Source: Gemella sanguinis ATCC 700632 (GTDB taxonomy: Bacteria > Bacillota > Bacilli > Staphylococcales > Gemellaceae). From it: a stretch of 64,000 nt of DNA. Positions 43,318-48,669 of this stretch are shown here, in pieces. The notes below the pieces were generated by a model. That model ran no database searches. It was not told the DNA's origin and saw only the letters and a list, made by a program, of their open reading frames with translations. The stretch is taken from contig NZ_JNJO01000008.1 of assembly GCF_000701685.1 (NCBI RefSeq), forward strand, positions 1-64,000, in the 5' to 3' direction. Within the stretch, counting starts at the first letter, position 1. Each line of letters begins with the position of its first letter. The translations under genes and the position numbers were made by a program.

Positions 43318-43396
43318 AGTAATAGAGATATTTTAACTCTATGTAAACTGAGAAAACTATAATGTATTAACTAATAGAATGAAAGGGAATAGTGCA

Positions 43397-45715
43397 ATGT
43401 TACAGTTAAAAGATATAGTAAAAAAATATAATACTGGGGGCACGGAGGTAGAAGTATTAAAAAAGGTTAATATTTCTTTTAGAGAAAGTGAATTTGTATC
43501 GATTTTAGGTGCTAGTGGTAGTGGGAAAACAACACTATTAAATATAATAGGAGGTCTTGATAAGTATTCTTCGGGAGATATGCTGCTTATGGGACGCTCT
43601 ACTAAAGAATTTACAGATCGAGATTGGGATAGCTATAGAAATGGAACTATTGGTTTTGTGTTTCAAAGCTATAATTTAATAGGGCATCTAAGTGTTATAG
43701 AAAATGTTAAATTGGCTCTATCCATTTCTGGTGAATCAAATAAAGAAAATGATATAAAAGCTAAGAAGGTATTGGAAGATGTTGGACTAGGAGATCATCT
43801 GTATAAAAAACCTAATCAGCTATCCGGTGGACAAATGCAGAGAGTAGCTATTGCACGTGCTTTAGTAACTAATCCGAAAGTTATTCTAGCAGATGAACCT
43901 ACTGGAGCCTTAGACAGTAAAACTAGCGTTCAGATTATGGAGCTTATAAAAGAAATAAGTAAAGAGAAACTAGTTATTATGGTAACTCACAATCCAGAGT
44001 TAGCACGTAAATATAGTGATAGAATAGTTAGTGTAAAAGATGGGGAGATAATAGAAGATACTAAACCGTATATTGAGCAAGAAGGAAACAATGGATATGA
44101 GTTGAAGAAAACAGCAATGGCATTTAGTAGTGCTATAAAGTCTAGTTTTAAAAACTTACTTACTAAAAAGTTTCGTTCATTAATGACCGTTGTTGCTAGT
44201 AGTATTGGGATTATTAGTATTGGTTTAGTACTTGCTATATCATCAGGTATGGATAAGTATATTCAAACTATGCAAAATGAGAATTTATCTAGTATGCCGA
44301 TAACAATTAGTTCGAATCAAATTAATTTTGGAATAGGTGAAGATAACAACACATCTGATTCTAGCGAAGAGAATCTTGTTCCAAAATCACGTAGGGATGT
44401 CCATAAGAACCTGTATTCAGAAGATGCGCTAGGTAATGGGGAAACATTCATTAAATATATTCAAGAAAATGCTAAAGACTATTATTCAGTGATAGATTTT
44501 GCAAAAGGATATAAAATAAAAGCTCTTACTAAAAACACTAAAGGTGATATAGTAGATGTTAAAATGGATGGTCAAGATAATTTCCGAGGAAATACTATAT
44601 TTAGTGTACTACCAGAAGATAAAAACTTAATAATGAATCAATTTGAAATAGTTAAAAGTTTGGAACAGAATTTTGAGTATCCTAAAGGTGATGAAGTAGT
44701 ATTATTTACAGCGAAGAATAATGAAATAGATAAAAATGTTTTAAAAGCTCTTGGTTATAGTGAAAATGCTAAAGTGAAATATGAAGATATTTTAGGTAAA
44801 GAATTTAGTATAGTGGATAATAATAACTACTACACTAAAGTGGAAAATAGATTTGTTCCAGCTGCTGTTGATGAGAAAATGTATAATGCTGGTACAAAAG
44901 TAAAAATTGTGGCAATAGCTAAAGCTAAAGACAGTTTTACAGTACCTCAATTTACATTAGGGTATACGAAAGAGCTACAAGATAGCTTATTATCTAAAGA
45001 AGTTTCTTCAGAAATAGTAAAAGAGCAAGAAAAAGATAAAAGTAAAAATATTCTAACTAATACAAAAATGGATAATGAAGTGGCGACTGAAGTTCTATCT
45101 GGTTTAGGAGCGAATACTGAGCCTAGTTCGATATTAATTTATCCGAAAACATTTAATGATCGTGATAAAATAGCAAACACTATTAGTGAGTACAATAAAA
45201 AAGTTGCAGATAGATATGGTGCAGGAACTGAAGATTATAATAAGTATAGTATTACATATTCAGATATGGCTAAACAGATGACATCAATTATGTCGCAAAT
45301 GATTAATACTATTACATTGATATTAACTGCGTTTGCGGGCATTTCGCTAATTGTATCATCAATTATGATAGGAATACTAACATATGTTTCAGTAGTGGAA
45401 AGAACTAAAGAGATTGGTATTTTACGAGCTATAGGGGCACGTAAAAAAGATATTACAAGAATCTTTATAGCGGAAGCAGGTTTAATAGGTTTTGTATCTG
45501 GAGCAGTAGGTGTTATTGTATCATCAGGGTTAGCTTTACCTATTAGTAAAACTATAGCTAAAGCTTTAAAAATAGATAATTTTAGTGCGGGGTTAGATAT
45601 AAAATCTGCGGTAGGTTTAATACTATTGAGTGTAATACTAACCTTGATAGCTAGTGTAATACCATCAAGAATGGCAGCTAAAAAAGATCCAGTCGAAGCT
45701 TTAAGAACTGAATAA
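43397..45715 (+). CDS. Fused ABC transporter, ATPase plus MacB/FtsX-type permease
   Basis: 772 residues. N-terminal ATPase with GASGSGKTT (38-46), [15 protein letters not shown] and [13 protein letters not shown], then one membrane helix near 270, a large extracellular domain (about 290-600) and three C-terminal FtsX helices with [15 protein letters not shown]. This is the single-chain form of MacB/BceAB-like exporters used against antimicrobial peptides or for export of lipoproteins and peptides. It follows the SdpR/SdpI-like pair, which suggests a peptide-resistance module. Start at 43397 has AAAGGGA upstream; ATG 43379 overlaps that site. Confidence 0.88.
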
Positions 45716-45720
45716 ATATA

Positions 45721-45755
45721 AAATCCAGCTAATAGTAAAAATTAGCTGGATTTTT
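45721..45755 (+). terminator. Terminator of the ABC transporter gene
   Basis: AAATCCAGCTAAT / ATTAGCTGGATTT stem followed by T-rich sequence. Confidence 0.88.
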
Positions 45756-45947
45756 CACTGATTTCTTGATTTTCTACGTGTTAGTTGCTATCTTTTTGGA
45801 ATAATTTTTAAGGAAGGTTTATTAATTTAATTTTCTTGATTGTTTTACAGTTTGAAATATTTAAAGAAATAATTTTAGTATTTATGAGGAGTGAATAAGA
45901 TAACAGAATAGTTATAATATCGGGATATGATAAGACATAAAATTGTT

Positions 45948-46688
45948 TTAAATATTAAAAATTTCTGTATATTTTTTCTTTATTTTTCTTATTGTGTACA
46001 CTGACAATAGTAAAGAAGAGTTATTTTTAAAAATAATGGTATCATTATAAAGTTCAGTAATATTTTGTAGGTTTACTATATAAGATTTATGGCATTGAAA
46101 TAGGTTATTGTTTAATTTAATTAATTTTGATATCTTGCCATAAAAGGAATATGTTTTATTTTCTGTTAAATAGATTGATATTTTATGATCACCAATTGTT
46201 TCAAAATATAGGATATCCTGAATATCGAAAATAAATTGTCTAGTGCCTATTTTTATAGGTATTTTATGTAATTTTGAGTTAGTGTCGATTTCTAACAGGA
46301 ATTGCTTGTGTAGTGTGTCTAAAGTTTTACGAATATCATCTTTTAATGTATTTTTATTTTTGTTAACAAAGGCGAAAGTAGAAATCATCTCCTTTAGTAA
46401 ATCATTCTGGTATTCTTGATGGGAACTAATATATATAAGTTTAGCAAAAGCATCTAAGTCTCGAATTCTTCTTCCTAATTTTATACCGGTGATACTATCT
46501 TTTCCAAAATTGATATCTAAAAAATAACAGTCAGCTTTTTTTTCTTCAATAAAGTTTATAATGTCTTCTGGATCTGTGGTAGATAGCATTATATCGAAAT
46601 TCCACTCGTTAATTATAAAATATTTAGTTATGGTATCTTCTATAAGTTTTAATGTATTTTTATTACTTTCACAGATAGCAATTTTCAT
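45948..46688 (-). CDS. Orphan LytTR-type response regulator (AgrA/ComE/BlpR class)
   Basis: 246 residues: receiver domain with Asp58 in YFLDINFG and a C-terminal LytTR DNA-binding domain (from about 145; FIFDIQDILYFETIGDHKIS, FQCHKSYIVNLQNI). This class controls quorum-sensing, competence and bacteriocin genes. No histidine kinase or pheromone gene is adjacent, so it is an orphan. It is divergent from a 1.3-kb region with small peptide and membrane-protein frames that looks like a decayed bacteriocin cluster. Confidence 0.88.
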   Translation of the reverse strand: MKIAICESNKNTLKLIEDTITKYFIINEWNFDIMLSTTDPEDIINFIEEKKADCYFLDINFGKDSITGIKLGRRIRDLDAFAKLIYISSHQEYQNDLLKEMISTFAFVNKNKNTLKDDIRKTLDTLHKQFLLEIDTNSKLHKIPIKIGTRQFIFDIQDILYFETIGDHKISIYLTENKTYSFYGKISKLIKLNNNLFQCHKSYIVNLQNITELYNDTIIFKNNSSLLLSVYTIRKIKKKYTEIFNI

Positions 46689-46789
46689 TAGTGTACCTCC
46701 ATTTTTATAACATATTATAATTCTACCATGAGATTATTCTATAAACAATAAAATTTTGCATGTTAGGAAATAAAAATGTAAACTTAGGG

Positions 46790-46795
46790 TATAAT
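46790..46795 (+). promoter_or_regulatory. Possible -10 before the peptide remnant
   Basis: TATAAT in AGGGTATAATTTAT, about 100 bases upstream of the leader divergent from the response-regulator gene; no clear -35. Confidence 0.35.
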
Positions 46796-46840
46796 TTATA
46801 AAAAAATAATAAGTGTACTGTAAAATAAAGATTGTAAGAG

Positions 46841-47027
46841 GTGTCAATTATAGAAAATAGGAATGAGATATTTTTTACGAATACTTATTATGAATTATTA
46901 AATAATGACGAAATCAATAAGTTGTGATGGTTTTTGTAAATGTATAGGCTATAGTGAAAATTATGGAGCAATTACTACAAGTTGTTTGAATACACAACAA
47001 CTCAACGAAGATAATGGTTTCGGGTAG
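46841..47027 (+). pseudogene. Possible decayed bacteriocin-like peptide gene
   Basis: A leader-like frame from about 46841 reads ...FFTNTYYELLNNDEINKL and stops at a TGA near 46925. In the next frame an open stretch (ATG 46905 to TAG 47025-47027) reads SCDGFCKCIGYSENYGAITT, then SCLNTQQLNEDNGFG, with four cysteines. A one-base change would join an acidic leader to a cysteine-containing core, the usual plan of a bacteriocin or RiPP precursor. No valid ATG is found for the leader. Also possible: a real 40-residue peptide from 46905, or chance. Confidence 0.35.
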
Positions 47028-47043
47028 AGATAGGAGTGAAGTT

Positions 47044-47226
47044 ATGAATAATTTAAAATTTTCAGAAATATTAATTATAGTATTGTATTTAACGATACTT
47101 TATCCTGTGAGTTATAGTTTATGGTACTTAGTGAAAGTTATATGTTTTATAGTGTATATTTCTACATTAATATATAAATATAGCTTTAAGAAAGAGCAAC
47201 ATCAAAATGAGGAATTAAAAAAGTGA
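47044..47226 (+). CDS. Small membrane protein, bacteriocin-immunity-like
   Basis: 60 residues with two hydrophobic helices (FSEILIIVLYLTILYPVSYS and a second to residue 45) and a charged tail. AGGAGTGAAGTT precedes the ATG at 47044; an in-frame ATG at 47014 lacks a ribosome site. Size and topology fit Blp-type immunity proteins next to the peptide remnant, but no family is recognised. Confidence 0.5.
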   Translation: MNNLKFSEILIIVLYLTILYPVSYSLWYLVKVICFIVYISTLIYKYSFKKEQHQNEELKK

Positions 47227-47807
47227 AGATTTACTTAATGTTGTAGACTATGGATGAGGAGCTATGGATGACTAATAAGGTGTTGTAACGGGTTGCTTGC
47301 AAGTAATAAGAGGAGTGAATATAGGTTTAGGTGTGGGAAGGTATCTATAATATAAAATCTCAAGTTTAGATAAATGATATAATTTCAAAATGTTATACTT
47401 AAAATAGTATTGTAGACTTAATGATTACAATGATATTATTGTTTAATCATATAGTTATATGTTTTAGTTTAATGATTACAGTATGCTTTTCTGTAATAAA
47501 TATCTTATTGTGATACTTCAGGGTAATTTTTATCCAAAAGAAAGTAATTAAGAAAATGAATAGTAGTATTTCAAGAAATAAGAGTTATTTCAGCACTTAT
47601 TTCTTTATTTGCTTAAGCTGATTGAGGAAGTAAAGCTTCCGAAACAATAACAAACACCCTTTTTAGAGGTGGTTATTTTTTACTGTTACTTCGCTAGAAA
47701 TAGGCTATAATATTAAAAAAATAAAGAAAAGTATATAGAGGGACGGGATTATAATAAGGGAGTTTTTGATAAACAGAGTACAAGAGATAAAGGGGGTATG
47801 AAACAAA
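47227..47807. other. Decayed region with a duplicated promoter segment
   Basis: No intact gene. One frame at about 47232-47343 is interrupted by stops but spells GVVTGCLQV and RGVNIGLGVGRYL, a bacteriocin-like composition. Another near 47421 begins MITMILLFNHIVICFSLMIT and stops after about 30 codons. The right part (47601-47714) is a copy of the segment upstream of tadA (48063-48162), with a GGAAG/CTTCC hairpin and TATAAT at 47706-47711. Confidence 0.45.
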
Positions 47808-48056
47808 ATGGTAACTATAGTAAGTAATCTAGTTTTCATACTATATATATTATGTAGTTTAATAAGTATTGTATTAAATTTAATAAACTATAAGCTAATA
47901 CAGAGAAATAGCTTTGTTGACAGTATTTTAATTTATATGATATTGACGCATGTAGGGATTAATATTGATAATATATATAGAAAAATATTAGTGCTATTTG
48001 TGATGTTATTAGTACTGATTAAGGATGTTAGATTCATTAAATCTTTAAAGAAATAA
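47808..48056 (+). CDS. Small membrane protein, possible immunity protein
   Basis: 82 residues, three hydrophobic helices (4-28, 37-50, 59-75) and a basic C-terminus. GGGGG precedes the ATG. It follows the first copy of the duplicated promoter element. Unrecognised family; the setting suggests bacteriocin immunity, as in Blp-type loci, but this is inference. Confidence 0.55.
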   Translation: MVTIVSNLVFILYILCSLISIVLNLINYKLIQRNSFVDSILIYMILTHVGINIDNIYRKILVLFVMLLVLIKDVRFIKSLKK

Positions 48057-48062
48057 GAGCTG

Positions 48063-48162
48063 TTTCTTTATTTACTTAAGCTGATTGAGGAAGCAACGCT
48101 TCCGAAACGTTTTAGAGGCAGTTATTTTTACTGTTTCTACGTAGGAAATATGCTATAATATT
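48063..48162 (+). repeat. Second copy of a ~100-base promoter-bearing repeat (first copy 47601-47714)
   Basis: Both copies share TTCTTTATTT, CTTAAGCTGATTGAGGAAG, the small hairpin (GGAAGC-AAC-GCTTCC here), CTTCCGAAAC, TTTTAGAGG, TTATTTTTTACTGTT and GCTATAATATT. Each precedes a gene, so the element carries a promoter (-10 at 48154-48159). Confidence 0.7.
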
Positions 48163-48201
48163 GTAGAACTTAGAGAAAATATTACTGGAAGGTGTTATAA
48201 G

Positions 48202-48669
48202 TTGAAAGAGCATAGTTATTATATGGAGTTAGCGTTAGAAGAAGCGCGGAGAGCGTATGAAAAAGGTGAAGTTCCTATTGGAGCGGTATTAGTAGTGGAT
48301 GGAGAAGTGGTTGCACGTGGGCACAATACACGTGAGGAAACTCAACAAGCTCTGAATCATGCAGAAATGATTGCGATAAAAAAAGCGTGTGAAAAGCAAG
48401 GGTTTTGGCGTTTGGACAATAGTTATTTATATACTACTATAGAGCCATGCGTTATGTGCAGTGGGGCAATAGTTCAAGCTCGTGTAGAAAATGTAATCTA
48501 CGGAGCGAAAGATCCAAAATACGGCTGTTGTGGTAGTTGTATGGATTTGGTTTCTAATAATAAATTTAATCACCAAGCAACAGTTGTAGCGGGTGTACTA
48601 GAAGATGAATGTTCAATGTTAATGAAAAGTTTTTTCAAAGAACTTAGAGAAAGTAAAAAGAAAAAATGA
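48202..48669 (+). CDS. tadA: tRNA-specific adenosine deaminase TadA
   Basis: 155 residues; deaminates the wobble adenosine of tRNA-Arg to inosine. Zinc and catalytic sites NHAEMIAI and PCVMCSGAIVQARVENV are present, and the N-terminal YMELALEEARRAYEKGEVPI is typical. Begins with TTG at 48202, preceded by GGAAGGTG at 7 bases, since no nearby ATG preserves the conserved start. The usual neighbours (SRP RNA, dnaX) do not follow. Confidence 0.95.
   Translation: MKEHSYYMELALEEARRAYEKGEVPIGAVLVVDGEVVARGHNTREETQQALNHAEMIAIKKACEKQGFWRLDNSYLYTTIEPCVMCSGAIVQARVENVIYGAKDPKYGCCGSCMDLVSNNKFNHQATVVAGVLEDECSMLMKSFFKELRESKKKK

Follow-up and report, generated by a model that had tools for sequence, protein, structure and literature searches.

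A kinase-less LytTR response regulator and the probable remnant of a double-glycine bacteriocin locus in Gemella sanguinis

Why does a response regulator of a peptide-sensing type stand without a kinase in Gemella sanguinis ATCC 700632, divergent from a run of small and partly broken reading frames, and what was this locus before? The window, by which we mean the whole stretch of 64,000 nucleotides that was analysed (G000:C7:1-64000), belongs to a genome of 1.8 Mb (G000). It was compared with the genus (nine Gemella genomes, G000 included) and with six genomes of the second genus of the family; the species of the window is represented by one strain, and the comparison is therefore one between species. 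Gemella haemolysans and G. cuniculi supply the two best named relatives that the regulator alignment retrieved, and two loci serve as references throughout: that of G004 (G004:C2, L054), taken as G. cuniculi DSM 15828 (NZ_KE384432.1), and that of G003 (G003:C57, L052), taken as G. haemolysans DNF01167 (NZ_KQ959970.1). Within the window, Rfam gave no match at the gathering threshold and a tRNA search found none. Among the titles listed by a full-text literature search, none concerns class II bacteriocin loci of this kind in Gemella. The features of the locus are collected in Table 1.

Table 1. Features of the locus, with positions in the window and the basis of each call
Feature	Position	Strand	Basis
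REC-LytTR response regulator, 246 aa	45948-46688	-	Pfam LytTR and Response_reg; 42-44% identical to the G003, G004 and G008 regulators
Promoter (intergenic) region shared by the regulator and the peptide remnant	46689-46838		Aligns locally with the intergenic regions of G003, G004 and G008
Possible degraded double site of the regulator	46739-46748 and 46759-46768	+	Matrix from half-sites of relatives; upstream of TATAAT 46790-46795
Open frame at the site of the G004 peptide leader	46838-46924	+	Three-frame translation; DNA alignment with G004
Cys-bearing frame with the core of a broken double-glycine peptide	46902-47027	+	Homology to the 58-aa peptide of G004
Small membrane protein, immunity-like, 60 aa when started at ATG 47044	47044-47226	+	ORF listed from 47014, 70 aa
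Gly-rich broken frame with stops	47231-47351	+	Seen in translation
Hydrophobic membrane-protein ORF, 82 aa	47808-48056		Listed ORF; relatives in four sister species

A response regulator without a neighbouring kinase

By its sequence, the regulator is a member of the LytTR response regulators (AgrA/ComE/BlpR class), with LytTR (PF04397, E 2.4e-15) and Response_reg (PF00072, E 3.1e-7) domains that both exceed the Pfam cut-off. Its nearest solved structures in a phmmer search of PDB sequences are AgrA, matched through the LytTR domain (E 9.9e-11), and ComE (E 5.1e-9), and AgrA is also its top NCBIfam model, at 118 bits far below the cut-off of 400. The preliminary description had called the locus Blp-type, a label which these matches do not support; as judged from them, the regulator is AgrA/ComE-like and not specifically Blp. 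A scan of genome contigs with the single regulator sequence revealed no relative; with the regulator alignment as query, 80 loci were retrieved. Matches occur in 43 of the 60 relatives searched. The stronger ones within the genus fall in four of nine genomes, its own included (G000, G. haemolysans, G. cuniculi and G008; 42-44% identity, 43% for G. cuniculi), and two of the six genomes of the second genus (G013, G014) match at 30% identity.

No kinase ORF lies beside this regulator and, as far as searched, no close kinase is encoded elsewhere in the genome, in agreement with the preliminary description. The window contains no AgrC-like ORF and no kinase remnant at E 0.1. With the G. haemolysans kinase as query, the single match in G000 was a 538-aa frame (27% identity over half the protein, query residues 216-424), and PF14501 had three matches there, in frames of 538 and 410 aa and, below cut-off, in one of 634 aa; sister species also show PF14501 matches in frames of about these lengths. 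An AgrC-like kinase adjoins the regulator in all five other Gemellaceae genomes that have it (G. haemolysans, G. cuniculi, G008, G013 and G014), in G013 on the strand opposite to the regulator. In a wider control (85 loci supplied, 83 with a regulator match, some genomes present twice, the window copy excluded), an AgrC-like ORF was found within 700 bp on either strand at 69 of the 83 regulator loci and was absent at 14, mostly in distant Clostridia.

The regulator gene carries an 18-base exact direct repeat (46341-46358 and 46647-46664), and the protein has NKNTLK twice, near Ser8. The receiver domain retains Glu7, the phosphoacceptor Asp58 and Lys110. Its residue 8, a position of the acidic pocket with which receivers bind Mg2+, is Ser, in an alignment column with Asp in 93, Asn in 5 and Ser in 2 of 100 rows, a count that takes in the window regulator itself and some genomes twice. 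A regulator that still works as a one-component switch, binding the old promoter unphosphorylated and keeping the immunity-like gene on, would be consistent with Ser8 and with a full-length REC and LytTR frame whose codon score (0.007) lies above those of the small ORFs. The retention of Asp58 and Lys110, however, does not suggest a receiver that has been wholly given up, and we regard such a switch as quite improbable, also in view of its candidate target site, described below.

Peptide remnant and small open reading frames

The cysteine-bearing peptide frame that had been noticed opposite the regulator is present (46905-47027), and its core is homologous to a double-glycine (GG) peptide of G. 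cuniculi. When the frames of 46690-48200 were searched, without composition correction, against a small database of 15 Gemella loci, frame 46902-47024 matched the 58-aa peptide of G. cuniculi (41% identity over 41 aa, E 5e-8), and the following ORF from 47014 matched the 64-aa gene that adjoins this peptide (37% over 52 columns, E 3e-7). None of 2000 shuffles was as good as the core-frame match, and in the whole of G000 the G. cuniculi peptide finds this core frame as its only match (E 6.9e-7). The leader-site frame, for which NCBIfam gave no match, and the core frame are out of register, and no Gly-Gly stands ahead of the core; a Cys peptide thus cannot be made here as a leader-core precursor. 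Among 157 genomes of the order, the G. cuniculi peptide was matched in four, namely G. cuniculi, G014, G000 and, weakly and partially, G070; the last match (E 0.0017, 30 aa) was taken as chance, no comparable locus being found in the surrounding 3 kb, and a plasmid search with the same peptide gave no match. The core reads CDGFWSCLGY... in G. cuniculi and CNGFFDCLGY... in G014. Since the G014 frame, at a contig end, also holds a stop, the unbroken Cys peptide is found in G. cuniculi alone, where it scores 14.8 bits against the NCBIfam bacteriocin cut-off of 21.5.

The adjoining membrane-protein ORF is open and can be aligned with the intact relatives that G. cuniculi, G013 and G014 carry, with its homologue adjoining a GG peptide in G. 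cuniculi and a peptide frame in G014. An alignment of this protein matched 13 of the 157 genomes of the order at E 0.01; the four strong matches (E at most 3.7e-27) are the rows from which the alignment was built, and the nine weaker ones (E 9e-4 to 9.5e-3) were taken as chance, six having internal stops and three lying inside longer frames. Peptide, membrane protein and regulator occur together in G000, G. cuniculi and G014. G013 has the membrane protein and the regulator, and no peptide frame in the 254 bases upstream of the membrane protein, where its contig begins. Neither the Cys peptide nor its partner protein reached the cut-off of any bacteriocin or immunity family.

A whole stretch of dead DNA, with small ORFs that are open by chance or through recent decay, would fit the codon usage, which is not gene-like and lends the two small ORFs no support, because their scores (-0.31 and -0.36) stand against a mean of -0.18 for ORFs in shuffles (sd 0.14, n = 227). 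It would also fit the dinucleotide shuffles of 46700-48195 (n = 1000), among which 89 contained an ORF of at least 70 codons and 29 one of at least 82 codons. Two ORFs of at least 65 codons, on the other hand, arose in only 5 of these shuffles, and the intact relatives of the first ORF speak against chance; this explanation appears doubtful to us, yet it deserves serious weight.

Both small hydrophobic ORFs of immunity-protein size in the preliminary description are open (47014-47226 and 47808-48056), and only the first is linked to a bacteriocin, through G. cuniculi. The second, of 82 aa, is 28-36% identical to a gene that stands beside a gene we take to be AmaP-like in G002, G. haemolysans, G007 and G008, with a stop in frame in G002. 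As G002 and G007 carry this relative and have no match to the window regulator, the 82-aa ORF is, on present evidence, not an immunity gene of the locus, and its earlier assignment as such is not supported. G000 has no ORF of the 82-aa type at the corresponding AmaP-side place; by its position the gene may have moved in this genome.

The broken Gly-rich frames had been described as bacteriocin-like. Such a frame does exist at about 47231-47351, but bacteriocin homology could not be detected: it has no family match, and in comparisons with six Gemella GG peptides 268 to 1822 of 2000 shuffles were as good. The stretch 47421-47585 was rejected as a decayed copy of the 82-aa gene, since 425 of 1000 shuffles scored as high. 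Two copies, 77% identical, exist of a non-coding stretch that contains a hairpin and TATAAT (47600-47740 and 48063-48162); they precede the 82-aa ORF and tadA and form the only clear duplication around these positions, and the matches listed for G000 and eight sister genomes include no other comparable copy of full length.

Fuller loci, shared promoter region and chromosomal place

In the G. cuniculi locus, a kinase and the regulator are divergent from the 58-aa GG peptide, the 64-aa membrane protein and then a 47-aa GG peptide, which passes the NCBIfam class IIb bacteriocin model (27.7 versus 21.5 bits). In G014, peptide and membrane protein lie on the strand of the regulator and are not divergent from it. 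The G. haemolysans locus (L052:7517-15069) encodes a kinase, a regulator, three GG-type peptides, a C39 ABC transporter that passes the TIGR01193 cut-off, an accessory protein that falls short of the one for TIGR01000 and a thioredoxin-like protein; neither the Cys peptide nor the membrane protein has a match in G. haemolysans. G008 (L053:6310-8973) has a kinase, a regulator and a 133-aa membrane protein that by eye resembles the 134-aa one of G. haemolysans; no GG peptide was seen, and this locus is perhaps another stage of decay.

The Cys-bearing peptide might have been the inducing pheromone of its locus and not a bacteriocin, an option that we consider unlikely. A small membrane protein follows the peptide in all three genomes that carry it, and a bacteriocin gene followed by its immunity gene is the usual order; in G. 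haemolysans, moreover, it is another GG peptide, of 61 aa, that resembles BlpC, although below cut-off (21.2 versus 70 bits). The pheromone option draws on gene order, since in G. cuniculi and in the window the Cys peptide comes first on the side divergent from the regulatory genes, like the gallocin inducing peptide (PMC8545106).

Transport genes had also been counted among the losses of the window locus. The G. cuniculi locus, the closest fuller one, contains no C39-type transporter in its 17 kb, and its genome yields weak C39 matches only (24.3 and 21.1 bits). Loss of transport is thus not demonstrated, and even G. cuniculi may not export its peptides. C39 matches are strong in G. haemolysans and G007 only; G000 has one weak match (22.8 bits), and the ORF that holds it, at 484 aa, is too short to encode an exporter of this type. 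In G007, the C39 transporter lies near a 77-aa peptide with a GG-like leader (L118:4960-9005), and this genome has no match to the window regulator. The ABC transporter at 43379-45715 was not counted with the locus, because four relatives encode similar proteins (773-788 aa) in the same place; its match to the G. haemolysans bacteriocin transporter is confined to query residues 488-731.

The intergenic region of the window can be aligned to those of its relatives, with scores as good in 0 of 1000 shuffles for G. haemolysans, 2 of 1000 for G. cuniculi and 61 of 1000 for G008, where G. haemolysans and G008 are close to each other (kinases 92% identical) and count almost as one. The intergenic regions of these three relatives have CTATTCAGGA in common together with a second similar half-site 20-21 bp away, and the half-site pairs of the fuller relatives are spaced about two helical turns apart. 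Paired 9-bp repeats have been described for blp promoters (PMC4739728) and, with a 12-bp spacer, for pln promoters (PMC2714321). With a matrix built from the half-sites of the three relatives, which were chosen by eye, the best pair in the held-out window region is the one listed in Table 1. It pairs with the G. haemolysans site in the intergenic alignment and is a possible, weakened target site of the regulator, a candidate proposed from sequence likeness. Its position upstream of the remnant and its columns aligned with the G. haemolysans site would suit the one-component switch considered above; against the switch, the site is weak, being equalled in 46 of 2000 shuffles, with at least eight higher-scoring pairs per strand of the window. 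A repeat pair of AgrA consensus, 21 bp apart, is not the best pair under the matrix of the relatives and was set aside.

What lies between the ABC transporter and tadA (43379-48669) differs among Gemella species, as judged with gene names assigned by look only. G002, G005, G007 and G008 have a gene of 340-355 aa between the two; in G001 and G006 a 345-aa relative lies near tadA, from which two other genes separate it, and that transporter is absent; in G. cuniculi a broken transporter frame and tadA flank a 764-aa gene; and on the G. haemolysans contig transposase-like frames precede tadA. The 340-aa gene matches seven of the nine genomes of the genus, G000 and G. cuniculi having none and G. 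haemolysans an interrupted copy on another contig. The regulator loci of G. haemolysans and G008 share the same neighbours, that of G. cuniculi lies at another place, and both places differ from that of the window, so that related cassettes are found at three or more places in the genus.

A decayed cassette and its likeness to known systems

We conclude that the region is probably what remains of a small class II (double-glycine) bacteriocin locus under two-component control, in which the peptide is broken and an immunity-like ORF is left over. This conclusion is drawn because the adjacent core frame and membrane protein match adjacent G. cuniculi genes, because the other five Gemellaceae regulators have a kinase beside them and that of the window does not, and because the intergenic region is related to those of G. 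haemolysans and G. cuniculi. It is weakened by the G. cuniculi Cys peptide scoring below cut-off, by the unfavourable codon usage and by the stopped frame and non-divergent layout in G014. The homology is strong, and the remnant is genuine but of an ordinary kind. The preliminary description of a kinase-less remnant holds in this form, fuller loci being present in other Gemella; intact bacteriocin-type genes occur in relatives, and the peptide and the first ORF are conserved, between species. Of its further proposal, that immunity genes were kept after transport and kinase genes had been lost, the missing kinase and one immunity-like gene stand, while the second gene and the loss of transport do not.

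The ancestral locus may have had the form seen in G. cuniculi, with a kinase and regulator divergent from the Cys-bearing GG peptide, the membrane protein and a second GG peptide. In the window the kinase is gone and the regulator stands directly against the shared promoter region; the cell would most likely no longer produce this bacteriocin. The remaining ORF, if expressed from the old promoter, might provide leftover protection against the bacteriocins of relatives, or might itself be on its way out; its immunity function and expression, like any activity of the regulator, are what we infer. A more far-reaching proposal, in which a kinase-free one-component switch with an altered receiver would hold the orphan immunity gene on and make the cell a fixed, protected non-producer, and in which the Cys peptide and membrane protein would form an undescribed Gemellaceae pair, we regard as a long shot.

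Our comparison outlines a decay path of a peptide-regulated bacteriocin cassette in Gemella. It also draws attention to the Cys-bearing peptide and its partner protein, both below the bacteriocin and immunity family cut-offs here, whose fuller G. cuniculi copy could be tested directly. Decay of such systems is already known, since incomplete BlpH or BlpR has been reported for many streptococcal strains by authors who leave sequencing error possible (PMC9638458). In pneumococcal blp loci, immunity genes are more numerous than bacteriocin genes (PMC4860687).

The window locus shares with that of G. cuniculi the regulator, the Cys-bearing core, the adjoining membrane protein and the divergent layout, whereas the G. 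cuniculi locus differs from it in having a kinase, unbroken GG peptides, a second GG peptide and another chromosomal place. The G. haemolysans locus has a related regulator and a kinase-regulator pair divergent from GG peptides, but differs in its peptides, its C39 ABC transporter and its accessory protein. AgrA of the S. aureus agr system shares the REC-LytTR architecture and provides both the best NCBIfam model and the best PDB sequence match (LytTR domain); it is set apart by the 118 versus 400 bits and by the companions of the regulator in relatives, which are GG peptides. With class II loci of the blp, com and pln type, finally, the locus has in common a LytTR regulator divergent from GG peptides and, in its fuller relatives, paired half-sites, while the window genome at this locus is without the kinase, the C39 transporter and the unbroken peptide.
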